The notes under the pieces are model-generated. The model did no database searches, was not told the origin of the DNA, and saw only the letters and a program-made list of their open reading frames with translations. The translations under genes were made by a program, and so were the position numbers. From Pseudophaeomoniella oleicola (lineage: Eukaryota > Ascomycota > Eurotiomycetes > Phaeomoniellales > Phaeomoniellaceae), in assembly GCA_003868215.1 (NCBI GenBank), contig QWDQ01000013.1, positions 310,001 to 374,000 of the forward strand: 64,000 nt of DNA, given 5' to 3'. Positions 43,985-64,000 of this stretch are shown in pieces (the stretch's first letter is position 1; every line of letters starts with the position of its first letter).

Positions 43985-44720
43985 CTACTCCGGTGGAAAT
44001 CTCGGTGGTTGCTCAACATCACCCGGCCCTGGCTTCGACTCGTTCACCGTCCCACATTTCTTACACGTCCTCGCATCCAGATCCGCCTCGAAAGCCAACA
44101 CCCCCGCCTTCACCTGCGTCCCCAAATCATCGCAGTGAAACGCTGCCTCGTGGACGATTTCCTTGCAACCCTTGCAGTACCACCGCAATCTGTCCAGTGA
44201 CTCCGCTGGTCGAGGCTGCTCGAGCACCACGCCGATGGTATCCGCGAATCGGACTGGATTGTGCGGCACGTTTCCGGGGAGGAGGAAGAGGGAGTTCTCG
44301 TGGATGGCGATGTCGACGAAACGGTGTGGCGTGGTGGTCGTGTCGATCGTTTTGAGCAGCATGGAGCCTTTATGCTGGTAGAAGAACTCCGGCGTTCTGG
44401 GAAGGTCGTCAGGTATGAGTCTTATAGCATGCGAACAAGAAAAAGGAAGAACACATGATTGAAACGCACTCATTGATATGATAATCCGTCCGCGCATTCG
44501 GTCCGCCGACCACCATGACCGTCAATCCCGCCGTGAGCGGATTGGCCGGGTGGTAGACGCAGTAGTTGTTGATCGGTGGCTTCAACTTGTCCGCATTCTG
44601 TTCGACCCTGCAGCAGGAAGATCAATCCTCTGTTGCGTAGAGAGCACGAATCAAGGAGGTATGTATGTATGTATGATGAACGTACCATTTCGGAAGATTC
44701 AACGGCATCCCCATCGCCAT
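43985..44720 (-). CDS. BNA1: 3-hydroxyanthranilate 3,4-dioxygenase
   Basis: Exons 44720-44686, 44607-44470 and 44396-43985 (194 residues). Splicing restores [19 protein letters not shown], the iron-binding core: His55, Glu61 and the later His103 in [12 protein letters not shown]. Arg51 and Arg107 correspond to substrate-binding arginines. The C-terminal rubredoxin-like cysteines CKGC and CKKC are present, as in bacterial and fungal enzymes. It opens 3-hydroxyanthranilate to 2-amino-3-carboxymuconate semialdehyde (ACMS), which cyclises to quinolinate for NAD synthesis or is decarboxylated by ACMSD, encoded about 6 kb away. Whether this is the sole housekeeping copy or a catabolic duplicate cannot be told from the window. 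The three ATGs at codons 1, 3 and 5 are all possible starts. Confidence 0.95.
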
Positions 44721-45597
44721 GGTCAAGGACCTCGAGTTAGTTGGCTCTTGACTGTTAATATAAACCAAGTTCCTTTTGTCCTTTTCTTCTTTTTTTTTCT
44801 GATAAGAAATCAGCGACGACTATGAGCGATAAATAAAAGTACCAAACAAAACAAAGAGCATGTGTATATGTTTGTATATTCCTCCGTAGGTACTAATAAG
44901 TATCAAGAAATAAATCTAACTCACGTTGTTCCTTGCACGATTTCTAGACAGTACGGTATCCTCCGTCCTATTCCGAATGTTCGGCAGTCAAAGAAAACGA
45001 TAAGCCTAGGTACTCTACCAATACCACATCATACATAACCCCCCCTCCCCTCCATTTCCCTATCCTTCGCTACGATAGCTTACGTACCTCCCCGAGTCAA
45101 GTTGATTTGGACAGAAACCGGTTACCCACCCGCCGTCTTCCTGCTTGACTTGGCTTGGTGATTGGATTGAATTGGATTGGATCGGATCGCTTCCGATCGA
45201 TGAATCGATGCGTTGCTTACTTCGGATGGGAATCCAGACCCAGACCCAGACCAACCACACTGCTGAATCGCGTTCTCTTCCGTTGATGAGTGAGTAAAAA
45301 GTACGAGGGAGGAGGTAAAGTAGAAGGAGGTGGGTAGATGATGGGTAAAATTATGGACTATTTAGTAAAATCCGATTTTGGTTCTGGGGCGATCTTTCGA
45401 AGGTAGGGAATAGGATGGGCGGGTTTTCGATTTCAAGGGTACGTACTTGTGATGGTATATATTCTACGCCCTGGTATGGCTGAGATGGTAGTTCTTTCTG
45501 GTCTATGGTATACTGCATATTTTTTACGACTTTGAAAGTGACACTGACTGCCTTGCCTGCGTAATCTATATAGGTAGATAGTTTGATTTCCATTCAA
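44721..45597. other. Intergenic upstream of 3-hydroxyanthranilate dioxygenase
   Basis: Holds the dioxygenase promoter and the 3' flank of the GH1 gene. T-run at about 44789-44799. A GGATTGAATTGGATTGGATCGGAT-type imperfect repeat lies near 45160-45190. No gene supported. Confidence 0.6.
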
Positions 45598-47448: not shown

Positions 47449-48113
47449 GACGAGACGAGTGAAGGTCTCTGATCGGTATCTCCATTTTGACACTATGGCC
47501 TGGCGTGGTCCTGAGCTCTTTATGCATCTTCTTCGCCTGGGTCGAGGACGAGAGAGCCTGTTGCAGATCCCCAGGAGGAGTGGATTTGTTTACTGCAATG
47601 GCCAAGAGACGTTATCTGAGAGATTAGGTCCGCTCCACCACAAGTGGGGCTGGAAGATGTGCCGGTGTAGATTTGTAAGGCTTCATGAGGATTCGGATAC
47701 GTCCGTCAGCCATTATCAGGCAGGGCCAAGTAGTAGAGATTGGCCGAGTGAGCGCTTCCGCCCCAGAGCGATTAGCTCAACTACCCATGCTACAGATAGA
47801 CGCTACTATCGAGTGCATAATCGATCGTTCTTTCACACAGTGCTAGAAACAGGCGATAGATCGGTCGTGTAAGATGGTTCAATAGAGATCAGGGCCCTGA
47901 AATTACTATATCTCCGTCATGCATATTTGTGGATTTGACCAAACGTGGACGGTGCATTTTAAGCTACTTGGGTACATTAAGGAACAAAGATAGGAGGTAT
48001 CAGAATTCAGGTCAGATCTTTCATTGGAAACCCACGAACTTCCAACTACTCTCTAACCGCAATACTCTCACACCGTACGTGACATGCCTTTTTTCTACTC
48101 AATTGAGTGCTCA
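47449..48113. other. Intergenic between MFS gene and GH1 gene
   Basis: GH1 promoter next to the MFS 3' flank. No coding sequence recognised. Confidence 0.6.
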
Positions 48114-49755
48114 TCAGGTCACCTTGGGCTCCACGTTCACTGCAGCCGCCTCCGGAGCTGCTTGATTTCGCTTCTCGATAGCTGCGAGATGATCCTCGAC
48201 ATCATGTCTTCGGCTTTCCTCATCTATAACACCAAACAAGACGTCCATATCCTCCAACCTGATATCCTTGGTCTCTGGCATGAAGAACGAAAAGATGACG
48301 GCAACCATATTCATGGTTCCGAATATCATCCATGTCTTCCATCCAATGTTCAGAACCATGATAGGCGTAGTCTTTGAGACGCAGTAATTCATGCCCCATG
48401 TCATGAGACCGCAGAGACCCATACCCCAATCACGAAGGCGAGTGGGAAATATCTCCCCCATATAGATCCATGACACAGGACCCCATGAGCATGAATATGC
48501 AACGATGAACAAATAGACAATCGCCATCATCCCCTTACCAGCTGGAGAATGCTGGCTGCCTGGATGAGGAGGATTGGTAGACAACGTACCACCAAGAGCG
48601 AACATAAAGACACCCATGAAGAACGCTCCTACAATGAATATGTGCTTGCGTTTGAAAACTGAGATTCCTGCCAAAACGAAGAGAGCTGTGATAGCGAATT
48701 TGATCACAGTAATCATGCCAGATGCGAAGAGAGCGGCATCCTGAGCTGTGAAGCCGATCTGTCTGAAGACTGTTGGTCCATAGTAAAGGATGCTGTTGTG
48801 ACCCTGAGAAACTTGTTAGATGAATGTATATCCGTCCAGACAAAGATTAAGCTTACAGTCCACATTGCTAAGCCAGCAACACCAAGGCCCCAACCAAGAC
48901 GAATGAGGTTCTTGCCAGTGAACATCTCTTTTATGCTTCTGCCGTTGGTTGCGGCAATTTCTTCGTCGATCTGAGTCATGATCTCGGCCATCTCCACGTT
49001 GATAGCTTCGTCGAACTCGGGAAGACTTCGGAGAGTAGCCAAGGATTTACGAGCATCTTCCCACCGATCACAGCGCGCAAGCCACCTAGGAGATTCAGGT
49101 GCAAACCAGGATGCGATGGTGACGATACCAGCAAGAATGATTTGGATCGAAAGTGGAATTCTCCATTGGCGAGAAGAGGTAGCTGAGACGTGCAAAGAAC
49201 ATCCATAGGTCGTCCAGTACGCTATCATGCCGCCTGAGACGAGGAACATCTCAAAGAATGCCATCATTAGACCACGCAAGTGCTTTGGCGAACATTCGGC
49301 CACAAACACCGGAGTGGTGTTACTGATGATGCCAACGCCGAAACCTGCAATGACTCTACCACCGTAGATCATCGACAGAGATGGCGCTTGAGCAGCAGTC
49401 TGGAGGATACCACCGATGATGAAAAGGAAGCCGGCAAGCGCAAGCATGTGACGACGGCCGATTCTGTTGCCAGCGACCGATGGTAGAAGAGACCCAAAGA
49501 AAGCGCCGGCATTGAGCAAGGCTACAATATTGGACGATGAGTAGGCCGCCTTGGTCGGGCTTTTAGCCAAATTAAAATCCCGTCGGAAGCTATCGGTGGT
49601 CTCAGCAATAGCAAAACTTGGTTCAGAATGGTAACTGACCTCATCAACGACGTGACAGCGCCGGCGACACCTGTATCAAAGCCGAACAGCATGGAGCCAG
49701 TGTTGGCAATGATGGCGACGAGGAACGCCCCCTTGTTGCGTCGAATTACATCCAT
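48114..49755 (-). CDS. MFS sugar transporter (STP/quinate-permease-like)
   Basis: Exons 49755-49640, 49589-48857 and 48803-48114 (512 residues; introns of 50 and 53 nt). Sugar-porter motifs: GFDTGVAG in TM1, GNRIGRRHM in loop 2-3, VFVAECSPKHLRG after TM4, PESPRWLARCDRWEDAR, and GPVSWIYMGEIFPTRLR near TM10, then FMPETKDIRLEDMD. Splicing restores AVTSLMSFRRDF and MWTGHNSILYYGP in TM7. It should be a proton-coupled plasma membrane importer of a hexose or a small cyclic acid. It diverges from ACMSD with a 1.03 kb shared upstream region, which suggests but does not prove shared regulation with the aromatic pathway genes. Confidence 0.92.
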
Positions 49756-50782
49756 TCTGGCGACAGCGAGAGACCAAGATCTGTGAAGAGGAAGGAAGGC
49801 GACGTCTTCACTGACAAGAGTCTATCGTTGATGCGGGATTTTCAAGGTGTCCAGGGGTAGGCATGATAGTTATCATATAGTAGGTATATTACTCCCACCT
49901 TATCCGTCGTATCGATCGCGTCTTATCTTAACGAGGAATAACCCGTTGAAGCGAATCGAATGAAGAGAGCTGATGAGACTAGATGGCAATCTATCTACAG
50001 GCATTGTTGATATCCTGCTAGCCGGAAGATACTGATACTGAACTAGACAAGCGTGACTGGGTCTCTTCCAACAGTGACTAGAGTCTCTACTCGAGACTGG
50101 AGACTGGAGACCCCGGAAGAGTTGCCGTGACAGTGACTAAGCGACTCTTATCTTATCGGGTGGAACCACCGGAAGCTTGCCGCCAATGGGAACTGACGAG
50201 TGGACTTTCCCAATCTCGACCTTTTATTTCCGTGGCCAGAACAGACTTGGAAGTCTCAATGAGAATTAGATAGGAGAAAAGCTGCACGGGCAACGGTTGG
50301 TCTGCTCCGATATGCTCCTCCTGATGCTTTTTGCTGCTTGACAGCTAATCCCCTCGCGAATTTGTCACTGTCCGACCAATATGCGTGTCCTGGATGGCGC
50401 GACAGGGGCTGGGCTATGAGATCAAGCGACCACTTTTGATCGGGTTCGTCAGCAGCATCCTTGCTGGATGATGGACTTCGCAGCCTCATGGAAGTGGGCG
50501 AAAGCTGTACTATGTATGAGTACTGCCATTGTCGCGAACAAGCGCCGCTTACAACACGAGCCGGTTCGGATCCGCTTCTGATGCTTTCCTTGTCGGTGCA
50601 CACCCGCTGTCGACAAAGCGTGAGGTCCCCAACTAAGATCAACATGAGTATGGGTCTCATTGAAAGGTCAAAATGTGTAATGCGACAGTTTGTCTGTCCA
50701 GGCTTCGTTCAATCCAAGACCAGAGGCCCAACAGTTCATCGGCCTTGGATTTATTGTGACTGTTCTGCGTATTCAATCAAAC
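49756..50782. promoter_or_regulatory. Divergent promoter between MFS transporter and ACMSD
   Basis: About 1 kb shared between two divergent genes. Three CCGGAAG copies occur at 50022-50028, 50113-50119 and 50169-50175; the last two continue to TTGCCG after one or two bases. A CGG-N9-CCG arrangement lies at 50157-50171, of the type bound by Zn2Cys6 factors. TF binding is inferred. Confidence 0.5.
50157..50171. promoter_or_regulatory. Candidate Zn2Cys6 site, CGG-N9-CCG
   Basis: Inverted CGG triplets separated by nine bases, in the MFS/ACMSD divergent promoter, overlapping the third CCGGAAG copy. Such short motifs arise by chance, so this is a candidate only. Confidence 0.3.
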
Positions 50783-52180
50783 ATGTCTTGCTGTCATAAG
50801 TGTTCCCAATGTCACAGTGCCAGGCCCGAAGGTCTATCACAGGTCCGTGATGCCTCTGCACTCTACAGAATCGACATGCATACACATATCATGCCCTCGT
50901 CGTTACCCGATCTCTCCGCTTACCCTCGTAAAGACCCGAGTGACTCGTGGATGGAATTGAAGCCCAATACGACGGACCCATCCAAGGTGGACATGTACGT
51001 GGGTGGTAAGTTCTTCCGGACCGTCGAGGACAATTGCTTCGACCCCGACACGAGACTGAGAGAGATGGACGATGCGGGCGTGGACGTACAGGTTCTGAGC
51101 ACGGTACCGATCTTGTTCTTCTACGACGAACCCGCTGTGCCAGTCACGATTTTGGCACGGGCCCTAAACGATCACATCGCCGACGTCTGCCGCAAGCATC
51201 CTCAACGGTTCGTGGGGTTGGCGACCCTGCCCTTGCAGGATGTGCAGGCGAGTGTCACGGAACTGCGGCGAGCAAAGGATTTGGGCCTGAAAGGCGTGGA
51301 GATCGGAACCACCATTGGCGATATGAACTTGGATGACGAGACGCTCTATCCGTTTTGGCAGGCGTGTGAGGATCTTGATATGCCTATCTTCGTCCATCCC
51401 TTGGGTTATTCCCTATCGACGGAAAATCCCAAACGATGGACCAGGTACTGGGGGGCATGGCTTGTGGGCATGTAAGGCTTTTCCTCTCTTCGACTCCTGA
51501 TCTCCCTCTCTCCCACAGCGAGCCTAAAAATGACTCCCCTAACTCACAAACCCACACACAGGCCCAGCGAAACCGCCCTCTCGATCCTCGCCCTGACCTC
51601 CGCCGGCGTCCTCGCCAAATACCCCACCCTCCGCCTCTGCTTCGCCCACGCCGGCGGCTCCTTCCCGGCCCTCCTCGGCCGCATCCAACACGGCTACGAC
51701 TGCCGCCCAGACCTCGTCGCCGCCTCCTCCCACGGCATCACACCGACCCAACACCTTCTGTCCGGCACCAACATCTGGCTCGACGGCCTCGTGCACGACC
51801 CGGACCTGCTACAGTACCTATGCCAAAAGCTGCCTAAAGACCGCATCCTCATGGGCAGCGACTACCCCTTCCCGCTCGGCGAGGTACCCGAACCGGGCAA
51901 GATGTTAGCTTCGGACGAGCGCCTCGCGACGTTTCTGACGGGCGAGCAGCGCGCGTATATGTTGGCGGGGAGCGCGATTGCGTTTTTGAAATTGGACGGT
52001 GGGTTTGAGGAGAGGTATCAGCGCGGACTGCGGAACGCGTTCGGAAGGATCGGACTAGGACATGTACAGGATGGAGAGAAGAAAGAGGAGGAGGTGGTGG
52101 TGGAACCGGAAGTTGTGCAGTCGAAAGCGTTGCTGCAGGGTTCGACGGTCACGACACGTGTTGTATCAGCTGCGGTCTGA
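50783..52180 (+). CDS. ACMSD: 2-amino-3-carboxymuconate-6-semialdehyde decarboxylase
   Basis: Exons 50783-51471 and 51562-52180 (435 residues). An amidohydrolase-2 family enzyme closely matching animal ACMSD block by block: metal ligands His33 and His35 in DMHTHIMP, the substrate-arginine region [38 protein letters not shown], the His ligand in [10 protein letters not shown], and WLVGMPSET restored by splicing. [17 protein letters not shown] and the metal Asp in [13 protein letters not shown] follow. It decarboxylates ACMS to 2-aminomuconate semialdehyde, diverting carbon from quinolinate/NAD to degradation. The N-terminus has a cysteine pattern (CCHKCSQC) not in the animal enzyme; a start at 50876 would remove it. 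The C-terminal tail after KLD is extra. This is the anchor of the proposed catabolic cluster. Confidence 0.95.
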
Positions 52181-52579
52181 ATTCACTCTGCAATTTGTAC
52201 TGATTTGGGGGGAGGGGGGGGAGAGGAAGAAGAAGAGGAGGAGGAGGAGGAGGAGGAGGAGGAGGAGGACCAGCATGTTGATACTACACAGGCATTGTTT
52301 TCTTCTGGGTAGGTATGAATGAAATGAACCCATTGGAATGGCACACGGAACTAACCACCTAGTCTCATACATACTTCATTCAGCACCAAATAATTATTAA
52401 AAATATTAGAAACTTGGGGCGTAAGCTCCCGATCGAAAATATAGGAACATCAGAATTTCCAGGACATTTAATAAACGCAATGAAACAACTAAAGTAATTA
52501 TTTCAGCACCACCAGTAAAAGTCCCTTCTCAATCTACCTACCTACCTACCCACTCCCCCACCCCCCCCAAAAAAAATCA
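52181..52579. other. Intergenic between convergent ACMSD and regulator
   Basis: Contains a G-rich tract and a (GGA)n run at about 52234-52269, with CTACCTACC repeats near 52536-52550. No gene. Confidence 0.7.
52234..52269. repeat. (GGA)n microsatellite
   Basis: About twelve GGA/GAG triplets just after the ACMSD stop codon, in a purine-rich stretch. Confidence 0.85.
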
Positions 52580-55498
52580 TCAAATCTTCGTATAATACAA
52601 CGAAGCCGGAGGAAATTCGGGGAACCGAAACCCCGTCCCGAAATCCGGCAAGGTCGGCATAGTGCTGGAAGAAGAAGAAGAAGAATACTGTCCTCCTTGT
52701 CCTCCTGGTCCTCCTCCTGCTGCTGCTATTCCTGTTGCGGTATTATTAGCCGATGTCCCGAACAAGAAATCGGTCGAGTTCGCGAGCATGGAATCTAGTT
52801 CGCTAAAGTCCATGGTGTCGTCTTCGGCGAGGATGTTGTTGGTGGTGGCGATGATGGGGGCGGTCGGGGAAGATGAGTTGGGGGCAGTGTGGTGGTGGTG
52901 GTGGTGGTGGGATTGGTGGTTCGAGAGCCAGGAGATGGGTTCGGGGCGAGAGTGGTGGTGGTTGGGGGGGACGTGGAGGGAGCGGGGACCGGAGTTGTTG
53001 CGGGGGGTGTCGTAGCTGGAGCATTTTCGTTTCAGAGATGAGGAGGATGGTGGTGGGGGAGGCGGGGGAAGAGGTTGGTGGGCTAGGTGTGGGCGTCGGA
53101 GAGGGTCTACGGTACGTTTGGCGGTTGGTTGTAGAGAGTCGTGCGCGTCCACTCCGTGAGCAGCGCGATGGTCGTGGTGGTCGTGGGTGAAGCAGCATTG
53201 ACCTCTTCTGCCATTTTGGAGAACGGTGAGGGTGAACTCGATGTACTCTTCGACGATGCCGCGGCAGCGATCTGCACCTGGCCAGACAGGTTCAAGCAAC
53301 CGGAGGCAACGAACAGCCTCTTCGACATCTGAAAGAGCCGTCTGGACAAAACTGGTCTCTGAATTCGCTCGGATGCAATGCAGCAGTACTGTGGCGCTGA
53401 CGAAACAATGATGCCCGTGGAGCAGCGTGTAGTGAGAGGTCGGAACACAACTCAGGAAATTGCTGGTACCCCTGATACAACTGGTGGCTGCTTTGGAGCA
53501 TTGAAGCAGGGCTTGGGAATTCTCCAAGGGTGATGTTCTATGCGGGTTACTCATGTATAGCCGGTGTAGATTGAGGACTGCCGAGAAGAATGATGACAAT
53601 GCTATGTGACGATAGACCAGCATTTCTTCTGATTGTGCATCCTTGATCGTCTCGGCGACGTTCTCCACCGACCATTGACGCAGCTGATGGTTCAAAGTCA
53701 GGACTCTCGATCTTAACTCGTCGTATTTCTCGCTGTTCTGCCAGGTCTGGGCATTCTTCACAGATGCCACGGTCCGCAGGATGTTACCGATGATTTTGTG
53801 GAGATGTGCCATGGCAACGAAACCTTCCAGTGCCCAGTTTGATTTGTCGGCGCCTACATCGGGAAACTCTACGTCGCAGTCTTCGTCGTTGATTGCCAAA
53901 GGACGACCAAGAGCTCCACTAAGTTGCCGATCAAGGATGTACAGAGTCCAGAATATGCGTCTTCTTGCCTGCGCTTCGTCGTTAGGAAGTCGAAGCTTAT
54001 CTGGGGACCTCTGTATCACGACATGGTTAGTCACAATTGCGACCGCTTCCTCTTAAGGGTTCTTCGGGGATTGAGTGGGTGTGGAAGGTGCAGAGCTGGT
54101 CAAGCAAAACTCACATGAAATCCAAGATCTTGTCCCACACGTATAGCTCTTCCTACTGTGATCCATGCTTCAGCTTCACTACCGACCTGTGTGAGATACA
54201 TGCTCATCAAGGCTAACGCTATCAACACCTTGGAGCTCCTCCTGCGGCTCTTTTGGGAAGAAGATGGAGGTATATCAACGAAATGCTTGGCTGTGTTGTA
54301 GAACTGTTGGGCAGGATCGTTCCCGTAATTCGAAAGGAGGTTTTCTAACACATTTCCATGCACCTTTCTTGCTGTAGGAATGCAAATGGCTAGAAGAGCG
54401 AACACAATGGCGGCAGATCCAATGTCGAATTGATCTGGGTCTTGTAGATCCGCGTACAAAGCATGAAGCTCGTCCGCATGCACAACAGGAAAGAGATGAT
54501 AGAGACTCTTCTCCCATGTGCTGACCAAGATGTCCACCAACGCTGCCTGTGGAATTTGTAGAACGAGACTATGATGCCCAGGTGTCGGTGGATCACCGAG
54601 AATGTATGAGCTAGGCGGACTAGACAAGGTACTGTCTCTCCGCAAGTACCCTTTCTTTTCCAGACCAGTGTAGATGTGCCGCCGGAGTCCGATACACGTG
54701 TCGATGATGGCTGTCATCGAGCCAAGCCCTACATATCTGAGCTCCCCGTTTTCATCCATGTCCAGCTCACCAAAGCTATCAGCATGAATGACCCGCCTCT
54801 CTGCCTCCGTCGACATGGGTTCATCACCACCAAGGTCATGACCGCCGGCCGTATCCTCGTCATCGTTGGGGATGTTCTGTGGATTCAGTACACTTCCATT
54901 GGCATGATGTTCATGATCTTGACCTGTCAGGTCATTGGAAGAAGAACCAATGGCTTGAAGCTCATGATCGACAACGCTGTTGGAAGACACATGCTCGTTG
55001 ACTTGCTGCATAGTCATGGCATTGTTCTGATTGCTCTGAAAGCGTTCCATAAATTCTCGAAACATGGATTCCATCGAGTTCAGACGACTTTCAAGCCGTT
55101 CAATGTGGAGTAGATCGACCTTCCTGTCGCTATCGAGATAGTGACACTGCAGGTTGAAACCAATACAGGTCTGGCACGGCTCCTTGCCATTACATTTCAC
55201 CTAAGACTTAGATCAGTCATGCCATTTCATCACAAGTCATGACAATAGTCACTGAATCTGAGATACCGACCTTCTTTTTCCTACATGCCTCGCACGCTCG
55301 CCATACTCGCTGCCGTTCCTGCGGAGGATGGTCGACATTGGCACTTGAAACGGGCGTTTTCGACGGGGTTGCTGGATTCGCCGGAATTCGACGCTGAGCC
55401 GAATTTCTCCCAACCACGTTCTTCGTCAACTCCTTCTTCTCACTCGCGCCATGATTTGTAGTTGAGCCCTTCTTGGGCGATGTTGATTGGGTATTCAT
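52580..55498 (-). CDS. Zn2Cys6 transcription factor, likely cluster regulator
   Basis: Exons 55498-55271, 55200-54115 and 54010-52580 (914 residues). The zinc cluster is split by intron 1: C69-x2-C72 in CEACRKKK, then VKCNGKEPCQTC and the sixth Cys at 95. A dimerisation-type helix follows (LLHIERLESRLNSMESMF). The fungal-specific regulatory domain spans about 280-640, with the RSPDKLRLP and RRRIFWTLYILDRQLSGALGRP segments that mark it. The C-terminal 200 residues are Pro-, His-, Ser- and Gly-rich (poly-Pro, poly-His runs) and could act as an activation region. It lies between ACMSD and the bicupin dioxygenase, the usual place for a pathway-specific activator. Targets and inducer are inference. 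Confidence 0.92.
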
Positions 55499-56011
55499 TT
55501 CTATGGTTGCGTACTCAATTCAGAGTAGTTCCGGGTACTGTAACAAGTTTTTAGACTAGGAACCTGAGGTAAGTAAACTCGGTTCAACGCATCAATGGAG
55601 GACTCTACAGCATAGCCAGACCCTATAGCTAGGAGCCTGACGAAAGAGGAGATTCGTCAAATATAAGTGCGCCATGGTCTTCCAGTATAAGTAATATACT
55701 TATCTTGAAGTAGTAGGTAGTTGGTCGTTGGTAGTTGGTAGATGGCGAAGTCGGGGATGAGGGAACCCCACTGATAAGGGAAAATGTTTAGCCTCCTCGC
55801 TTCCTCCTGTTGGTTCACCACTATAGAGATCAACGAGACGCCTAGATCATTCTCGTCTGTCTTTATGCTACAGTATATCCCGCATGCTATGTCTATTTTG
55901 CCATCGAATTCTCGAGATTCCTATTAATTCAGCCTATTAATCCAGGGAGTCAAACACTATGCATACTCAAGGGACCTGCTAACTGTTCTTACGTACTTAT
56001 GGCTAATACAA
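55499..56011. other. Intergenic upstream of regulator
   Basis: Promoter of the Zn2Cys6 gene and 3' flank of the bicupin gene. TAGGTAGTTGGT-type repeats lie near 55717-55740. No gene seen. Confidence 0.6.
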
Positions 56012-57194
56012 CTATACCTTGGACCTATAGAACCCAAGGTTGACATGTAAAGGCTTGTCGCTAAATGAGAACAGATACACCGACTCCTCCGCTTCTGCAA
56101 AATGCTCAAAGCTGTGCCACGCGGGAACGACAAAGCAGTCGCCTGGACCCCAATCGAGACGAGTGCTCTCACCCTTGGGACTCTTGACCTCGGTCCAACC
56201 ACGCCCACGATGCACCTGGAAGCAGTTGGCTGGGGTTTCTTGCCTGGTTGGGCTCTGTGCGCCAGCAGCAATTCTCTCAGCGTAAGCCCCGATCACCGTA
56301 TTCACTGGCTTTCCATCAGGCAAGAGGTATTCGGAAAAGGCGTAGGAGCCGCCTGGGCCGTCGAGCTTTGCCTGCATGATAGACCATGGGAACTTCATAT
56401 CCTGGCACTGCGAATCAGGAATAGCTTTTGACTCGTGAGTGAAAGAGCCGAATTCCTCTTCGTAGTGGTCTGTGAAATCCACCGGTAGATTTTTGAAGAA
56501 AGGTATACTGAGACCTGCTCCATGTTAGATTTAGGATGCACTCTTCAGGAGGACCTCCTTACCGTCGAGCCAGATAACGTTCTTGGTCCCTTCATTGCCG
56601 TGATCATGCCAGTTCCACGAAGGCGTAATGATAAGATCTGGAAGATTCGTGGTCAGCCCACTCTTTCACCACGACGCTTGAGAAAGCTGCTCACCTCCAG
56701 GAACCATGTACATCTTCTTGCCCGAAATGGCGGTATAGCCTTGTTCCCCTTCGATAAGGAATCGAACGGCAAAGGGCGTATGTCTATGACATAGTGCTTG
56801 CTCTCCCGGTAGAATCAGTTGGTGGGCTGCGAGAAGCACATCACTGCAATCACATCAGCCACCGGCCCAGCCCGAAAGTATGCGTAGAGGGATACCTCGT
56901 GTGCGGACTCGATCTAGGCCCCGGGTTAATGAACAAGACCGCCCTTCTCTCTGACTCCTTGGGGTCGACAACCTCGGCCGCCTTCAAGAGCAGGCTCCGA
57001 GAGTCAGCATATCTCCAGACTGCTGGGATGTGCTTCGTGCGAGGTGCCGGTGAGGTTGGTGGAGCTCCAGTATTCCATAATGGTACCATCTCTGCTGCCC
57101 GAATCGTACTCTCCAAGGCCTCCTTGGGAGTTGTAGTCTTCCCCAGGGACCCAACTTGGGCGCCTGGTGAGGCAACATCTGCGGTTGGCGACAT
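56012..57194 (-). CDS. Gentisate 1,2-dioxygenase-like bicupin ring-cleavage dioxygenase
   Basis: Exons 57194-56896, 56843-56695, 56637-56563 and 56514-56012 (341 residues). The first cupin has the Fe(II) ligands His118 and His120 in ALCHRHTPFAVRFLIEG and a further His in PSWNWHDHG (159/161), as in gentisate, salicylate and 1-hydroxy-2-naphthoate 1,2-dioxygenases. The second cupin follows (NCFQVHRGRGWTEV, GDCFVVPAWHSFEHF). The conserved N-terminal part includes LWNTG and ERRAVLFINPG. These enzymes cut the ring of hydroxylated benzoates between the carboxyl- and hydroxyl-bearing carbons. The gene sits between the regulator and the aldehyde dehydrogenase, so a role in the same aromatic pathway is likely; its true substrate is unknown and could be an amino- or hydroxy-benzoate. 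Confidence 0.9.
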
Positions 57195-57517
57195 GTTTGC
57201 TTGTACAGAACGATTGCTTCTTTCGTCTCAAGAATGATATGCTACAACACGATATCAAACCTACTTAATTGGAATTGATTACATTATAGCAAGACTCGTC
57301 AGCTTCAGAGTCGATCGACTCGGTCGTTGCGCTCGGCAGATTCGGTCGGTGTTCATGACTGCACCGATGCGATATCTTTGTCGCCCGGATAGCTTCCGGG
57401 CGATCTAGATAAGGGGGAGACTGGGCGACATGGAAGCGAATTATCGCGCGAACAAGCAGGTCCTTGAGTCAATGGATCAATAATACTTCCACTGATTAGA
57501 GAAGCTGGTGCAACTAA
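57195..57517. promoter_or_regulatory. Promoter of bicupin dioxygenase
   Basis: Short spacer between the bicupin start and the ALDH stop. Its main feature is the perfect inverted repeat at 57381-57403. No coding sequence. Confidence 0.6.
57381..57403. promoter_or_regulatory. Perfect 9-bp inverted repeat, candidate operator
   Basis: Arms TCGCCCGGA and TCCGGGCGA separated by five bases (TAGCT), about 190 bp upstream of the bicupin ATG. Each arm contains a CCGG core, and the arms present CGG/CCG triplets in the paired form typical of dimeric Zn2Cys6 regulators. A transcription terminator hairpin for the ALDH gene is not expected in fungi. Function is inferred. Confidence 0.5.
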
Positions 57518-59117
57518 TCAGACTGATGGGATATGTAGAGTCCGAACGTTCGTGAAAACCTCCCGGCTGTAAGCGCCACCTTCACGTCCTGTGCCCGAAG
57601 ATTTCATACCCCCAAATGGAGTCCCTAGCTCGCGAACAAGCCAACAATTGATCCAGACCAGTCCAGCCTCAATCTGTTCGCCCACTCTCCGCATCCGTGC
57701 TCCATCTTTCGTGAGTAGTACGCTGGCTAAGCCATTGGGATTGTCGTTTGCCAATGCAATGGCGTCTTCCTCCGTCTGGAATGGAGCGATTGTGACGACT
57801 GGTCCAAATATCTCTTCCCGCATAATACGGCTACTTGTCGCAACTCCGGTCAACACTGTAGGTTCAATCCAGTAACCTCCGCTTGGCTGCGCTACTGGGA
57901 CACTACCAGTCTCGAAGACAGCCTTCTCTTCCTTCGCAAGTTCCAGATAAGATCTGACCTTGTTATAATGTTGGAGTGACACCACTGCTCCCACCTCCTC
58001 CTTGATTCTATATGATCGTGTAACGTGGGTTTTGAATCGTGATAGAAAGTCATCATAGATCCTCTGGTGAACATATATCCGGGAACCACAGAGACAGACT
58101 TCTCCTTGATTCGTGAAGGCAGCAGTAGCAGCCAGTGCCACCGCCGATTCGATGTCCACATCATCGAAGACGAGAGTTGGATTTTTGCCTCCCAGTTCTA
58201 ATGACAAATGCTTTCCGATATCTGCTGCTGTGTCCCTACGGATCTGAATACCAGTAGCCGTGCCTCCTGTGAAGGAAATACCTTTAATGATAGGACTTCG
58301 CGTCAAAGCACTGCCTGTCACTGCTCCAGTTCCGAAAATGACATTGACCACACCTGGTGGGAGCTTTGCCTCTGCAAATACTGAAGCGAGGACTGCGAGA
58401 GAGTCAGCTTCCATATAAATTCTGACTGGTAAAGAACGTTGACGCACGATAAGCCGACATGCTTGTAACTTCCGATGGTTTCGCAACTGCCGTGCATCCA
58501 AATGCAATACAAGGAGCAATCTTCCAAGTCAAAAGATATAATGGCATGTTCCAAGGCGAAATCAAGGCGAAAACGCCTGCAGGAGATCGGTGTTCATAGG
58601 TTAACGCCACACCATCAATCATTCGTGCGGTGGTCTCTTCGTGTAGAATATACGTCGCGAAGTACGAGAAGTTCGAGATCGCCCGATCTACTTCAACTCG
58701 TGCTCTCTCCAGAGTCTTCCCTTGATCAATACTCTCCCAGATAGCAAATAGTTCTCGTTTCTGCTTGATAAGAGTAGCGATAGCCTGCAAATACTGCGAC
58801 CTCTCGAAGCGAGTCGTCTTTGACCATGACTTGAAGGCAACATCGGCGGCATTGATGGCGTCCTCTACGATCTCTGGCGATGTGATGGGTAGCTTCGCAA
58901 ATTGCCTTCCTGTCGAAGGTTGGAGGACTTCGAGGAACTTGGTATCGTCTCCCGCTAAAGCGAAGCTGCTGTTGATGAAGTTACGTATCTCCAGGGGCTT
59001 CTCGTACGCCGCTCTCAGCACTTGCTCAGCTCTTGCGGGGTCGTCGAGACCGCTGGCTGACAACGAAGCCGTAGCCATCTCATCGGTCCAGTCTTGATCG
59101 CTCGTATAGTCTCCCAT
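57518..59117 (-). CDS. Aldehyde dehydrogenase, 2-aminomuconate semialdehyde dehydrogenase-like
   Basis: Exons 59117-58448 and 58392-57518 (514 residues; 55-nt intron). An NAD-dependent ALDH with Asn190 in SPWNMPL, Glu289 in LSLELGGKNP and nucleophile Cys323 in NQGEVCLCGSR. The sequence around the nucleophile (NQGEVCLCGSRIYV) and the C-terminus (CWLVRELGTPFGGMKSSGTGREGG) closely follow ALDH8A1 and bacterial 2-aminomuconate semialdehyde dehydrogenases; the Arg in VRELGTPFGG matches a substrate-carboxylate binder of those enzymes. It should oxidise 2-aminomuconate semialdehyde, the product of ACMSD, to 2-aminomuconate. The frame opens seven codons earlier at a TTG; the first ATG is 59117. It is divergent from the hydrolase gene with 302 bp between starts. 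Confidence 0.9.
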
Positions 59118-59419
59118 CACAGCAATATTCAATGTCAAGATCTTTTGGTTTTTTTCACTCAGTTTCTGTCAGGCATTTAACACCACCGCCTTAACCCGAT
59201 CGTAACGGCCATATAGCTTGCTCGAAATAGTGGTACGGGGTGGCTACCGACACCTCTATCAGTTCACGGGTAATGATCCGGCAATGCTCCAGCAACAGAT
59301 TGGGCAAGGGTAAACGACTTTAGGCAATCGTTCATAAGAGACACGAGTAGGAGCACTTCAATTTTAGGTAATGTTTTTGAGGCGTATGCACGGAGTCGAG
59401 TCAGAGCAAACATTGCGTT
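59118..59419. promoter_or_regulatory. Bidirectional promoter, ALDH and hydrolase
   Basis: Compact 302-bp region between divergent starts. Isolated CGG/CCG triplets are present (for example in GATCCGGCAA near 59276) but no clear inverted repeat. Shared control of the two genes is plausible from spacing. Confidence 0.5.
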
Positions 59420-60436
59420 ATGGATGCAATCAAAGCTGCCATCGAGCAGCATGGCAACGTCTGGTCTCTGCCTGTCAATCAAAAGATGATCGCTGCCTAC
59501 ACGCCACTTCACGAAGAAGAGAGACCAAAGGTTCTCGATACTGTCAAAGTCACAAAGAGTATCAAGTACGGTGGTGACTCGAGGAACAGACTCGATGTAA
59601 GAATATGCTACCGTGACTGCGCTACACGACACTGATAGGCGTGAGGTATATGAACCCTTGGCCGACGAAGCATCAACTAATTATCCCGTCGTCGTCTTCT
59701 TCCACGGCGGAGGATTTGTTGGAGGCGACAATGACATCAACGACGCCTTACATTCTAATATAGGTAAGTTCTTTCCTATGTGACTCAATCTCTGCCAGCC
59801 TTGACTTCGTCTCTAGCATATTACTTTGCATTGCATGGTTGTGTCTGCGTTCTAGCCACATATCGTTTGGTTCCTTCTGCTCGATATCCAGAAGGCGCAG
59901 AAGACGTCACTCAGACGTTGCTCTGGGTCAAGCAGAACATCGCATCATTTCAAGGCGACTCCTCTGCAGTCCTGGCGGTGGGGCAAAGCTCGGGAGGTGC
60001 GCATCTGGCCATGTCTTTGCTGCTGGGAATGCTACAGAAGGCAGAGATTGGGCTGAAAGGCATGGTCTTGATGAGCGCTCCATTGTCTTATGACCTAAGT
60101 CAGGAACGAAGAAAAGCGACTATGCTCAAGTATCATCAGACCGAGAGCACTGAAGAAGTCATGGAAAATACCGCCGTTGCTTTGCTCAGGCGGGTTGACA
60201 TGGCTGTTCTGCGGACTGTACCTATAACACTGTTCGTCGCAGGGCTTGATCCTCCTGAAATCAAGAACGCCAACGAGTCCTTCCAAACGGAGTATGAGCG
60301 ACGTTGTGGCGAGAAACTAGACGTCTACATCATGGAGGGCCACAATCATATTTCGAACACCTATGCGATCGGCCTAGCACATGACGCTACAGGGCCTCAA
60401 ATTCTGTCTGTACTCAAGAACGGCGCTGTCTGTTAA
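59420..60436 (+). CDS. Alpha/beta hydrolase (esterase/formamidase-like)
   Basis: Exons 59420-59596, 59646-59763 and 59817-60436 (304 residues). The oxyanion-hole motif HGGG is at 79-82, the nucleophile elbow G-Q-S-S-G has Ser156, and likely acid and base are Asp in GLDPPE and His in EGHNHIS. Exon 1 joins to exon 2 as RLD-VYEP, a conserved start of the fold. The family covers hormone-sensitive-lipase-type esterases and kynurenine formamidase-like enzymes, so an amide or ester of an aromatic amine is a fair guess for the substrate in this setting. Two AG acceptors 7 nt apart end intron 1; only the second keeps frame. It shares its promoter region with the ALDH and is followed by the RidA gene in the same direction. 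Confidence 0.85.
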
Positions 60437-60741
60437 GACCGTCCATAACGAGCTCGGAAACGTGCAGGCAGATAAATCCAGAAACACACGAAGGGCATCC
60501 AACATCGAACTCCCGGATGCACATCCGCAGCGGTAATTACACCTCGGATTTGCGCGCTCCTCCTCATCGTGACCACATATAGTTGTTTACTAGACATAGT
60601 AGATCGATCGAGTGTTATTATAGGATTCTGTGAACCAACAAGCAGAGTTTGGTCATCACCGCGTATAGGGAGTTCCTTTTGCGAGACAAGGATCTCCAGC
60701 CAACAGAGATCCAGCACGATCCATTTACATCCCACTCCATC
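60437..60741. promoter_or_regulatory. Promoter of RidA-family deaminase
   Basis: Spacer between co-oriented hydrolase and RidA genes. The near-palindrome CGGATG-CA-CATCCG lies at 60514-60527. Two further CGG triplets follow within 20 bp. No gene. Confidence 0.55.
60514..60527. promoter_or_regulatory. Inverted repeat CGGATG-CA-CATCCG, candidate operator
   Basis: Six-base arms around a two-base centre, about 215 bp before the RidA ATG, carrying terminal CGG/CCG triplets. The same half-site recurs in the quinone oxidoreductase/monooxygenase promoter. Confidence 0.4.
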
Positions 60742-61203
60742 ATGTCCTCCCCTTCCAAAAACGGCACACCATTCTTCCTCCCCTCCACCGCCGCCCAAGG
60801 TCTCGCAAACTACCCCCACGCCCGCTCCGTCCCAGCCACATCCCGCGTCCTCTACGTCTCAGGAACATCCTCCCGTCGGGGCGACGGCACATACGCCGGC
60901 TGCATCGAATCCCCCGCCGGCGACGGCAAATACGTTCTCGACATCAAGCAGCAAACCTCCGCCGTGCTCGAGAACATCGGCACGATCATCGCGGGGGCTT
61001 CGAACGGTACGGCGGGGCTGGAGAATGTGGTCGACGCAACGGTGTTTTTGACCGATATGGCGGACTACGCGGGTATGAATTCGGAGTGGAATAAGGTGTG
61101 GCAGGATAAGGGGTTGGCACCGAGTCGGACGTGTGTGCAGGTTGCGGCTCTGCCTAATGTGCGGTTGAACGTGGAGATCAAGGTCACGGCTATTATCCCA
61201 TAG
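60742..61203 (+). CDS. RidA-family 2-aminomuconate deaminase-like protein
   Basis: Single exon, 153 residues from MSSPSKNGTPFF. It has the RidA/YjgF fold pattern but with the signature of bacterial 2-aminomuconate deaminases rather than general RidA: YPHAR near the start, LYVSGTSSRRGDGTYAG, then LDIKQQTSAVLENI, VVDATVFLTDM and a C-terminal APSRTCVQVAALP followed by VEIKVTAI. The conserved Arg of SRT is present. The enzyme releases ammonia from 2-aminomuconate to give 4-oxalocrotonate (2-oxo-3-hexenedioate). With ACMSD and the ALDH it completes three consecutive steps. Its stop lies 82 bp from the convergent quinone oxidoreductase stop. An alternative is a general imine deaminase, which the local motifs make less likely. 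Confidence 0.88.
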   Translation: MSSPSKNGTPFFLPSTAAQGLANYPHARSVPATSRVLYVSGTSSRRGDGTYAGCIESPAGDGKYVLDIKQQTSAVLENIGTIIAGASNGTAGLENVVDATVFLTDMADYAGMNSEWNKVWQDKGLAPSRTCVQVAALPNVRLNVEIKVTAIIP

Positions 61204-61284: not shown

Positions 61285-62259
61285 CTAGATCTTAACAACC
61301 AATTTCCCCGTCGTCCTCTTCTCCGCCAAATCATCCTGTGCCGCAGCAATGCTTTCCAAACCATATTCTTTCCCATACTGAACCTTCACGATCCCCTTCG
61401 CGACGAGGTCCAGCATCTCCTGCGACCGCAGCACGAACTCTTCTCGCTCGGTGATGTAGTTCGCCAGAGTCGGCCGGACCAGTTTGACGTTCTTCTTGCT
61501 CAATTCGAGCGGTCGGAAACCGTCGACGGCGCCGCTGGAGTTTCCGTAGGTAACAAACGTGCCTTTCCGTCGTGTGCATGCGAGATCGTCGGCAAATGTG
61601 GCTTTTCCGATGCCTGAGAGGACGGCGTGGCATCCGGCGCCGTTTGTTACTTTCAGCACTTCTTGCAAAACATTCGCCTCTGAGTAGTTGATGACATGGT
61701 CTGCACCGTGGCTAGAGGCTATTGCCGCTTTCTCTGCCGTCGAGACAGTTCCGATGACATATGCGCCCAGATGCTTGGCCATCTGGACGAGAAGACCACC
61801 GGTACCGCCAGCTGCAGCTTGGACGAGCACAAACTCTCCCTGTTTCACCTCATGCGCGTCTCTCACCATCGTCCATGCTGTGATCCCCTGAAGCATCAAT
61901 GCAGCACCATCTTTGACCGACACACTTTTTGGGAGTTTCATAACCCCCGCAGCTTGGACCGCGATGTATTCGGCAAAAGCTCCTTGAGCGAATACGGCCA
62001 CGGCATCACCAACGTGAAGTTCGTAGTCCGGGGAGACATCAGATCCAATAGTCTCGACATGTCCAGCCCCCTCACGACCGGCAATGACAGGGAGATCCAG
62101 CTTATATAAGCCTGTCCGTTGATAGATATCAATAAAGTTCACTCCTGCGTAGTCCAACTTGACGAGTACTTCAGTAGGCCCTGGTGTTGGCTTTGGCGTG
62201 TCATCGGAGAGCCTCAGGACATTGGAGTCGCCGGTCTCTGGTATGATGACGGCACGCAT
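61285..62259 (-). CDS. NADPH:quinone oxidoreductase (zeta-crystallin type MDR)
   Basis: Single exon, 324 residues, full length for the family. It starts MRAVIIPETGDSNVLRL and contains GVNFIDIYQRTGLYKL, AGREGAGHVETIG, GITAWTMVRDAHEVKQGEFVLV, the Rossmann turn AAAGGTGGLLVQ and a C-terminal EKRTTGKLVVKI. No zinc-binding residues are present, as expected. Such enzymes reduce quinones or enones by NADPH in the cytosol, protecting cells against reactive aromatic intermediates. It is convergent with the RidA gene and divergent from the FAD monooxygenase. Membership of the aromatic cluster is suggested by position alone. Confidence 0.92.
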   Translation of the reverse strand: MRAVIIPETGDSNVLRLSDDTPKPTPGPTEVLVKLDYAGVNFIDIYQRTGLYKLDLPVIAGREGAGHVETIGSDVSPDYELHVGDAVAVFAQGAFAEYIAVQAAGVMKLPKSVSVKDGAALMLQGITAWTMVRDAHEVKQGEFVLVQAAAGGTGGLLVQMAKHLGAYVIGTVSTAEKAAIASSHGADHVINYSEANVLQEVLKVTNGAGCHAVLSGIGKATFADDLACTRRKGTFVTYGNSSGAVDGFRPLELSKKNVKLVRPTLANYITEREEFVLRSQEMLDLVAKGIVKVQYGKEYGLESIAAAQDDLAEKRTTGKLVVKI

Positions 62260-62926
62260 ACTGACTGTTCAGTATTTTGAGCCTTGGCCTGATATGCTGG
62301 GTTATGGCACTCGAGAAATGTGGTCGTTGGCGGACGTACACATCAATGCCGAACACTAAGCCTCCTCAGAGGCATTTTCCCTTTTCATTCTATGCCCTTT
62401 CATCTCTCAGCCTATTCGCGACCCACTATGAAGCCGATCTCGGGCTCTCTGTATGCCATGCCATTTCAATGGAGGAGCTTAATTACTCATGTCGTGAAAA
62501 AGTCTTGCAAAGACTCGGAGCGATGGGTTGGGAAACAGGACGGAATGGTGGTTGGTGGAAGGCATCCGAGGTATTAAAATTCCCCGTATCAACGGATGCT
62601 GACCCGCTCTAGATTGGACGTTGAGCTGCTTACCGAGATACGAACAACCCCCCGCAGTCGAGAAGATGCAGCTCGGCTACAGCAAGTCTGATATCCAATG
62701 CATCCGCAATGAAATCTGGCAAATCCAAGAAGAGGTTAGTGTTCTGACTCGTGCCCGTCTTGCAGCGACAGTCACCTGAGAAAGCCCAGTCGTGCATATC
62801 GAGCGATACAGCTGTAACGTACCGATTGTAGCGATCGCCTTAAGAGTTCCTATACGACGTGCGTCGTTCCTTTCAACACGATCGTCACCTTTTTTCCCGC
62901 AAAAGTTCCTTCGTAATTTCTTCGCA
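62260..62926. promoter_or_regulatory. Divergent promoter, quinone oxidoreductase and FAD monooxygenase
   Basis: Shared upstream DNA. GCATCCG at 62562-62568 and CGGATGC at 62593-62599 form an inverted pair with 24 bases between; a further CATCCG is at 62701-62706. A 111-codon plus-strand frame at 62277-62612 has no recognisable character and is not called. Confidence 0.5.
62562..62599. promoter_or_regulatory. Inverted GCATCCG / CGGATGC pair
   Basis: Seven-base arms separated by 24 bases; the half-site is the same as in the RidA promoter element. Spacing is wide for a single dimer site, so this may be two separate half-sites. Confidence 0.3.
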
Positions 62927-64000
62927 ATGGGAAATTATCTATCTCGATTTTCTGCACTTTTCTTCGGGTTTGGCCGATCACAGCCGTTACTGCCTGCTCC
63001 CGAAAAGACAGAGACGGCGGACACAAAGAACGGCCAGGAGCCTTTCCATGTGCTGATCGCTGGTGGCGGTGTCGTCGGCCTTACGCTCGCACAGGGATGC
63101 CGAGAGAATGGGATACCGTTTACCATCTTCGAGAGAGACTCGCATACGGGAGAAAGGAGTCAGGGATGGGCTCTTACCCTGCATTGGTGCTTGGATCAAC
63201 TCGAGAGGACGATCGGCAAGCAGAGAACGGCACAACTACCTGATGTATGTCAAAGTTCCCGCTAGCATCCTTGCGAGTCAAAATCTTGAGATCGGAGGAA
63301 GAGGCCAAGCCGGACATGAATTATTATCTGACTGACTGTAATAGGCACGGGTCACTACGATGACAGGTCCGGACAAGGGAAATTTCCTATTCTTGAACGC
63401 TGTCACGTGTGAAGCGAAATACAAGATCCCACCTGCCAAAAGACGGCTACGTCTGCACCGACAGAAGCTCCGGGACATCTTAGCATCCGGCATCGACCTT
63501 CAACAAGGCAAGAAAGTGTCATCATTCGAAACCCCAGCGGCGGGGGGTGTAATTGCCCATTTCTCCGACGGCAGCATCGTCAAGGGCTCGATATTGATCG
63601 GTGCAGACGGAAACAACTCGAATGTGCGGAGGAGCATGAACATGGCAAAGAAGGATCTCACGAAACTGCCCGTCAACCTCGTGGGCGTCGTCCGAGAATT
63701 CACGGCCGAACAAGCCGCTCCGATCCTCGACCTGGACCCCTTGCTGTTCCAAGCCCTCGACCCCGAGACCGGCAACTACCTCTGGTTTTCATTCCAAGAG
63801 TCTAACGAGCAACCTGATGGCAGCACGACATACAAAGCGCTCGTCCTCGTCTCGTGGCTCATCAAAGACACCGTCAAAGACGCTATTCCGGAGACACATC
63901 GCGAACGAATCGCGCTGATGAAGAAACGAGCGGCCAACTTCGCCGAACCGTTGAGAAGCGCCGTGTTCGATATCCCAGACGACCTGGACTATACGACGAG
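62927..64000 (+). CDS. FAD-dependent monooxygenase (salicylate hydroxylase type), 3' end outside window
   Basis: Exons 62927-63244 and 63345->64000; the frame is open to the window edge. The FAD dinucleotide fold is at about 44-75 ([17 protein letters not shown], then FTIFERD), and the GD motif is seen as [14 protein letters not shown] in exon 2. An Arg in [13 protein letters not shown] is the usual position before the second strand. Class A flavin monooxygenases hydroxylate aromatic rings using NAD(P)H. Near this cluster, hydroxylation of an anthranilate- or kynurenine-like substrate would be an obvious entry step, but the sequence alone does not decide it. The N-terminus MGNYLSRF precedes the fold by about 40 residues and fits an N-myristoylation pattern. 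Confidence 0.9.

Follow-up and report, generated by a model that had tools for sequence, protein, structure and literature searches.

We analysed a 64,000-nucleotide stretch of the Pseudophaeomoniella oleicola genome (bases 310001-374000 of contig C18, here called the window; the genome comprises 26.1 Mb in 112 contigs), which carries, together with its right flank, a cluster of genes predicted to degrade 3-hydroxyanthranilate. Genes for 3-hydroxyanthranilate 3,4-dioxygenase (3HAO), ACMSD, an AMSDH-type aldehyde dehydrogenase (ALDH) and a RidA-family deaminase all lie between 43985 and 61203, that is, in about 17 kb. An MFS transporter gene sits between 3HAO and ACMSD, and the promoter region 49756-50782 is common to the transporter and ACMSD. 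Genes for a Zn2Cys6 transcription factor, a bicupin dioxygenase, an alpha/beta hydrolase, an MDR-family oxidoreductase and a FAD-dependent monooxygenase are also present, and an HglS-family gene follows to the right of the window (Table 1). The gene models were built by hand on GT-AG introns and rest on the sequence. An earlier, sequence-only reading of this DNA had placed ACMSD, the ALDH, RidA, the Zn2Cys6 regulator, the bicupin and the hydrolase between 50783 and 61203; all six are where it had put them, but the interval was drawn too narrowly, with 3HAO and the MFS gene to its left and HglS beyond the window on the right.

Table 1. Predicted genes and promoter sites of the cluster (window positions, except those preceded by C18, which are contig positions).
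Feature	Position	Strand	Details
3-hydroxyanthranilate 3,4-dioxygenase (3HAO), 194 amino acids	43985..44720	-	exons 44720-44686, 44607-44470, 44396-43985; PF06052 E-value 1.6e-54
CGG-N8-CCG and CGG-N7-CCG sites, upstream of 3HAO	45119..45195		
MFS sugar-transporter-type gene, divergent to ACMSD	48114..49755	-	PF00083 on both halves; exon structure approximate
Four CGG-N7/8-CCG sites, between MFS and ACMSD	50114..50606		sites at 50114, 50170, 50562, 50594
ACMSD	50783..52180	+	exons 50783-51471, 51562-52180; PF04909
Zn2Cys6 transcription factor, candidate cluster regulator	52580..55498	-	PF00172 E-value 2.3e-10, PF04082 E-value 1.2e-25
Zn2Cys6 regulator exons	55498-55271, 55200-54115, 54010-52580	-	uncertain at the C-terminus and at the first donor site
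Putative bicupin ring-cleaving dioxygenase, gentisate/salicylate family, separate clade, 341 amino acids	56012..57194	-	exons 57194-56896, 56843-56695, 56637-56563, 56514-56012
CGG-N7-CCG site, upstream of bicupin	57386..57398		
AMSDH / ALDH8A1-type 2-aminomuconate-6-semialdehyde dehydrogenase, 514 amino acids	57518..59117	-	exons 59117-58448, 58392-57518
Two CGG-N8-CCG sites, divergent ALDH/hydrolase promoter	59236..59280		
Alpha/beta hydrolase fold-3 esterase	59420..60436	+	exons 59420-59596, 59646-59763, 59817-60436; PF07859 E-value 3e-23; best PDB match esterase 4zrs
CGGATGCACATCCG, upstream of RidA	60514..60527		13 of 14 bases as in CGGAAGCACATCCG upstream of HglS (C18:374852)
RidA-family predicted 2-aminomuconate deaminase, 153 amino acids, intronless	60742..61203	+	PF01042; best PDB match 6izh
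MDR-family quinone/enone oxidoreductase	61285..62259	-	PF00107/PF08240; best PDB match quinone oxidoreductase 3qwa
CGG-N8-CCG site, between MDR and FAD-monooxygenase genes	62593..62606		
FAD-dependent monooxygenase	62927..64000	+	runs on to 64427, past the window; PF01494 E-value 3e-20
HglS-family gene (open frame)	C18:374951-376528		starts about 1 kb right of the window edge; PF07063 E-value 4e-108

Searching the genome by protein family turned up two 3HAO copies, the one in the window and another on contig C71. The latter, within C71:52001-60000, is flanked by a MutS-type mismatch-repair gene and an RNA 3'-terminal-phosphate-cyclase-like gene, both named by eye, and is presumably the copy for NAD synthesis. 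The fungal ACMSD matched the human and Pseudomonas fluorescens enzymes with E-values of 3e-82 and 5e-54, respectively, and ACMSD enzymes were the 13 best of its 48 PDB matches, followed by a 5-carboxyvanillate decarboxylase (E-value 2e-28). Moreover, the columns of H6, H8 and H174, which we take to be the metal-binding histidines, were invariant when the protein was aligned with human and bacterial ACMSD. No NCBIfam model matched this protein.

The seven best PDB matches of the fungal ALDH were AMSDHs. In PfAMSDH the substrate is held by Arg120 and Arg464, which the cited part of that work reports to be absent from the other families of ALDH (PMC4286809). Both arginines have counterparts in the fungal protein, R145 and R477 in the alignment. 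Among the paralogous ALDH frames of the same genome, none of the nine aligned has the second arginine, and the first is found in one (on contig C42) of the five with a letter at that position. In a tree of 49 sequences, thinned from 86, the fungal ALDH joined the operonic bacterial AMSDHs (support 95/89), apart from all nine paralogs. Two results count against the assignment: the protein sits on a long branch of its own (2.88), a placement that the tree tool marks as unsure, and it misses the equivalog cut-off of TIGR03216 (435.8 versus 693.25 bits, with 867.8 for an operonic bacterial enzyme, from locus L030), a bacterial model named for 2-hydroxymuconic semialdehyde dehydrogenase.

For the RidA protein, the best of 43 PDB matches was the 2-aminomuconate deaminase 6izh. 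The motif [VIL]SG[TI]S[SA]RR was present in 119 of its 120 best relatives (out of 275; the named ones are fungi) and in 61 of the 70 best RidA matches of the bacterial ACMSD loci described below, and was absent from the one RidA paralog of this genome and the one second-type bacterial RidA that were aligned. Our own reading is that this motif may be a hallmark of the deaminase, and the protein is predicted to be a 2-aminomuconate deaminase. A comparison with viral contigs gave no relative of it. The sequence-only reading had proposed that a fungal gene cluster is dedicated to the aminomuconate branch, a proposal to be abandoned if the ALDH and RidA proteins fell outside the aminomuconate clades. 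The ALDH tree, its long branch notwithstanding, the RidA motif (no tree was built for this protein) and the best matches all speak for the proposal.

With 3HAO, which the sequence-only reading had not listed, the cluster encodes an enzyme for each of the four steps that lead from 3-hydroxyanthranilate to 2-oxo-3-hexenedioate. 3HAO would open the ring of 3-hydroxyanthranilate; ACMSD would decarboxylate the resulting semialdehyde ahead of its cyclisation to quinolinate; AMSDH would oxidise the decarboxylated semialdehyde to 2-aminomuconate; and the RidA-family deaminase would convert 2-aminomuconate to ammonia and 2-oxo-3-hexenedioate (4-oxalocrotonate). Judged by homology, it is very probable that the cluster performs this ring opening, decarboxylation, oxidation and deamination.

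Scanning prokaryote genomes yielded at least 585 confirmed ACMSD relatives, of which the best 80 loci were kept, 58 of them 20 kb or longer. Of these 80, 70 had a RidA match, 68 a 3HAO and 64 an ALDH, and in 62 loci an ALDH frame had both AMSDH arginines. Because the same genes recur in these loci, the fungal gene set is more than chance. That housekeeping genes came together here by accident, and that 3HAO works for NAD synthesis alone, could be argued from the second 3HAO copy and the many ALDH and MDR paralogs in the genome. However, ACMSD directs flux away from NAD, and hence is not an NAD gene; four consecutive steps lie in 17 kb, and bacteria have the same set. The promoter sites that these genes share and a published fungal cluster of the same content (PMC7842363, in its cited sections) make this explanation highly improbable.

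We then consider how 2-oxo-3-hexenedioate could be used. The HglS-family gene is the only match to PF07063 in the genome, and scored 362.7 against a Pfam cut-off of 25. H70, H226, E294 and R74 of the P. putida HglS (6w1g) correspond to H108, H274, E342 and R112 of the fungal protein; the numbering of the triad, which we assumed, agrees with the letters of 6w1g. An HHE metal triad and a substrate-binding Arg74 are described for HglS in the cited part of PMC7286885.

Three proteins, the bicupin, RidA and HglS (rather than ACMSD, AMSDH or MDR), were searched for in other fungi. Identities to the proteins of Capronia coronata (Eurotiomycetes, Chaetothyriales) were 86% for the bicupin, 89% for RidA and 64% for HglS, values that make the fungus most likely a relative of the black yeasts. 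Between the best 120 of 275 RidA relatives and the best 120 of 7999 HglS relatives (this search scored the 8000 candidates with the most words in common with the query), ten contigs, each longer than 13 kb, were common by size, and nine of them fell among the first 34 HglS relatives, a cut that we set by rank. Organism names agree in both searches for five contigs, those of Capronia coronata, Coleophoma cylindrospora, Pestalotiopsis fici, Scytalidium lignicola and Pleurostoma richardsiae; Sporothrix thermara is named in one search only, and the four other contigs come from the same source in both. These six named fungi span the Eurotiomycetes, Leotiomycetes and Sordariomycetes. In four named species HglS is 1-6 gene numbers away from RidA or the bicupin: in Capronia coronata the numbers are 02144 (HglS), 02147 (RidA) and 02150 (bicupin), in Coleophoma cylindrospora HglS 03868 adjoins bicupin 03869, and HglS and RidA are 02119 and 02122 in Pestalotiopsis fici and g5883 and g5887 in Scytalidium lignicola.

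The promoters of the cluster also have sites in common. Eight upstream regions, 4,240 bases in all, were drawn by hand (first as nine, then redrawn as eight), and the patterns CGG-N7-CCG and CGG-N8-CCG together gave 12 sites, found in every region but the regulator's own. Dinucleotide shuffles lead one to expect about 0.5 site per spacing; with the best adjacent spacing chosen, 12 sites were reached in 0 of 1000 such shuffles and in 0 of 1000 random sets from window positions 1-43000, and eleven other palindromic triplets gave at most 9 sites. The pattern of the nearly identical RidA and HglS sites had five matches genome-wide versus six for a reversed control, so its frequency alone shows nothing; what we do count is the distance of 4.3 kb between two of the five. 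Another match, on contig C37, was set aside: this 3-kb locus has an isochorismatase-like frame (judged by eye) and nothing recognised from the pathway. We propose that the Zn2Cys6 factor encoded at 52580-55498 co-regulates the genes by binding to the CGG-N7/8-CCG sites.

Of the 80 bacterial ACMSD loci, 39 had at least one gene of the lower part of the meta-cleavage pathway: 4-oxalocrotonate decarboxylase and the hydratase had relatives in 38 loci each, the aldolase in 21 and the acylating acetaldehyde dehydrogenase in 22. When the window, its left flank and two right flanks were compared with the queries used for the bacterial loci, RidA and HglS were the sole fungal matches, and no lower-pathway gene was found. 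For the 4-hydroxy-2-oxovalerate aldolase domain PF07836 the fungal genome gave no match, against three in a Pseudomonas control; since the genome was read exon by exon, a domain split over several exons could escape notice. A genome search for the bacterial 4-oxalocrotonate decarboxylase, likewise made exon by exon and without a positive control, found no relative.

These results bear on the possibility that the core cluster is real but HglS is an unrelated neighbour that works in lysine catabolism. 2-oxo-3-hexenedioate would then be degraded elsewhere, either in the bacterial manner, through decarboxylation and hydration, or in the animal manner, through glutaryl-CoA. Lysine catabolism is indeed where HglS is known from (PMC7286885, cited part), which speaks for this possibility; both other fates are named as possible in the cited sections of Martins et al. 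(PMC7842363), and the single HglS gene found in the genome would have to serve lysine too. It could serve both pathways, because they would meet at 2-oxoadipate. The ten contigs common to HglS and RidA, six of them named and in three classes, the short gene-number distances in four named species, the identity of 13 of 14 bases between the HglS and RidA promoter sites, and the failure to find PF07836 (with its control positive) or a decarboxylase relative (no positive control) all oppose this explanation, which we hold to be unlikely.

A link of HglS to the pathway suggests a continuation of the route. 2-oxo-3-hexenedioate would be reduced to 2-oxoadipate, perhaps by the MDR oxidoreductase (61285-62259); from 2-oxoadipate the HglS-family Fe(II) oxygenase would form D-2-hydroxyglutarate, with release of CO2; and D-2-hydroxyglutarate would then yield 2-oxoglutarate. 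This whole route, the four core steps followed by reduction and HglS, appears reasonably likely, and the clustered HglS would, if this is true, explain how the ring carbons return to central metabolism. The sequence-only reading had taken 4-oxalocrotonate as the likely end point, for which we find no support, because the linked HglS suggests a way on to 2-oxoadipate and 2-hydroxyglutarate.

We know of no gene assigned to the reduction to 2-oxoadipate, and the MDR gene points to a candidate. That its product is the 2-oxo-3-hexenedioate reductase is a tentative assignment: the 2-haloacrylate reductase 1wly is among its PDB matches, and its nearest paralog in the genome is 46% identical. An MDR-family gene was also seen some 5-9 kb from ACMSD in seven Actinomadura loci (L077, L082, L085, L090, L092, L093 and L098). 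These bacterial genes, whose products show 31-32% identity to the fungal MDR, are possibly of interest for the missing reductase. A further MDR match near ACMSD, in bacterial locus L031, was dropped, being on the opposite strand and beside a triose-phosphate-isomerase-like frame (by eye).

The bicupin, whose PDB matches include 2d40 and 3nst, is like gentisate and salicylate 1,2-dioxygenases in its fold family, in the Fe ligands H119, H121 and H160 and in the equivalents of R83, Q108, R127, H162, W172 and D174; the roles of these residues in the salicylate dioxygenase 3nst, on which positions 104-108 of the pocket are numbered, are as we presume them to be. It differs from those enzymes at positions 104-108 and in falling far below the gentisate equivalog cut-off of TIGR02272 (212.2 versus 442.1 bits). 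These positions read LAAHQ, and among the best 120 of 138 relatives L-[ASG]-A-H-Q occurred in 24, [YF][AGS]G-x-Q in 75, gaps in 11 and other residues in 10; the pocket is thus unlike that of most relatives named gentisate dioxygenase. The first 24 relatives form a clade of their own with 53-86% identity, and the next named full-length fungal relative has 42%. The cut-off and the changed pocket led us to reject a gentisate dioxygenase, and the part of ring opener of the core route, in which the bicupin had earlier been cast, fell away once the 3HAO gene was found at 43985-44720. We consider the bicupin a putative ring-cleaving dioxygenase for a substrate other than gentisate.

The FAD monooxygenase perhaps hydroxylates a ring; its PDB relatives (4hb9, SorC) are weak and mixed, and it is at most a possible salicylate or anthranilate hydroxylase. 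Together with the bicupin it probably supplies the system with a further aromatic acid, aminated or hydroxylated. For the hydrolase, a role as kynurenine formamidase found no support, the best 60 of its 214 PDB matches being esterases, lipases and similar proteins.

Alternatively, the main substrate might be another aromatic acid, hydroxylated by the FAD enzyme and opened by the bicupin, with the 3-hydroxyanthranilate enzymes as one of two arms. The bicupin and RidA searches had nine contigs in common by equal size, of which one of 1506 bases was dropped because it is too short for both genes, and the eight that remain are long enough; bicupin relatives 49-120 added no further contig. The separate clade of the bicupin, with its retained Fe ligands and changed pocket, fits the same idea, as does the induction of the Aspergillus terreus cluster, which has no RidA gene, on salicylate in RNA-seq (PMC7842363, cited sections). 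Nevertheless, the presence of all four 3-hydroxyanthranilate enzymes offers the simplest full route. Moreover, the bicupin looks optional, because six of the ten contigs common to RidA and HglS, the Pestalotiopsis, Pleurostoma and Scytalidium contigs included, are missing from its best 120 of 138 relatives. A main substrate other than 3-hydroxyanthranilate is thus rather improbable.

The most far-reaching view that these results allow is that ascomycetes bring the tryptophan ring into the citric-acid cycle by a complete, co-regulated pathway via 2-oxoadipate and a clustered HglS, with an ending unlike the bacterial meta-cleavage or the animal glutaryl-CoA one; in this pathway the MDR protein would be a candidate reductase of 2-oxo-3-hexenedioate (or 2-aminomuconate) and the bicupin would feed in another aromatic amine or phenol. 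We give this view as a whole a probability of about 0.5. Several observations weigh against the route through HglS and its co-regulation. The fungal HglS is below the cut-off of the bacterial NCBI equivalog NF049974 (408.2 versus 550 bits), and HglS was found in 0 of the 80 bacterial ACMSD loci, so the link has no bacterial precedent there. Outside this genome, co-location in fungi was judged from names, locus numbers and contigs of equal size rather than from the contigs themselves; 25 of the first 34 HglS relatives have no contig in common with RidA, many being on contigs of a few kb, and agreement of names is limited to five of the ten contigs. The CGG-N7/8-CCG pattern was picked after looking, and the whole window has a mild excess of it (18 N8 sites versus 13.6 expected, and 19 N7 sites versus 13.2).

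Other genes were noted in and around the cluster. Within the cluster span, between 3HAO and the MFS transporter, is a gene (45598-47589, minus strand) for a GH1-family glycosidase that carries a long extension at its N-terminus; it was left out of the cluster because its upstream region (47590-48113) is without an N7 or N8 site. Directly to the right of HglS is the gene of a large NACHT/NPHP3_N-domain protein (C18:376601-379963, minus strand, in two adjoining segments), which may be of the STAND or heterokaryon-incompatibility type. Another Zn2Cys6 regulator is encoded outside the cluster (window 28204-30730, minus strand), its protein having a run of near-identical 'EPERRVV' repeats, and a sulfatase-like gene, its family judged by eye, is at the left end of the window (1906-3507, minus strand).

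Compared with known systems, the bacterial 3-hydroxyanthranilate and 2-nitrobenzoate operons, which we take to be of the nba type, resemble the fungal cluster in having a RidA-type deaminase, 3HAO and ACMSD close to one another and AMSDH nearby; they differ in the meta-cleavage genes of 39 of the 80 loci and in the lack of HglS in all 80. The closest likeness is with fungi. A '3-hydroxyanthranilate catabolic cluster' of 3HAO, ACMSD, AMSDH and, recurrently, a YjgF/RidA putative deaminase has been described in Ascomycota, and in A. terreus a FAD monooxygenase somewhat homologous to salicylate 1-monooxygenase is found close by (Martins et al. 2021, PMC7842363, cited sections); by gene content the locus described here belongs to it. 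With this publication the main claim of novelty of the sequence-only reading, that a dedicated fungal cluster would be new, was wrong. FAMeDB likewise lists 3-hydroxyanthranilate as one of eight central fungal ring-opening intermediates (PMC13094099, cited part). What our locus has beyond the published cluster, in or beside it, are the separate-clade bicupin, the alpha/beta hydrolase, the MDR, Zn2Cys6 and MFS genes and HglS, none of which section 8 and the Figure 5 legend of PMC7842363 name as cluster genes. The HglS extension is the new part: we did not find it in print, and a search of the open-licence literature gave no paper tying HglS or DUF1338 to fungal breakdown of tryptophan or 3-hydroxyanthranilate. 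The fungal HglS is like the DUF1338 enzyme of lysine catabolism in its HHE metal triad and substrate arginine (PMC7286885, cited part), and differs from it in being linked to 3-hydroxyanthranilate genes. In the parts cited, Martins et al. left open the fate of 2-oxo-3-hexenedioate, not having confirmed the glutaryl-CoA route (PMC7842363), and the HglS authors left open the role of the fungal HglS proteins (PMC7286885); the linkage of HglS to the cluster in fungi of three classes merges these two published questions into one.

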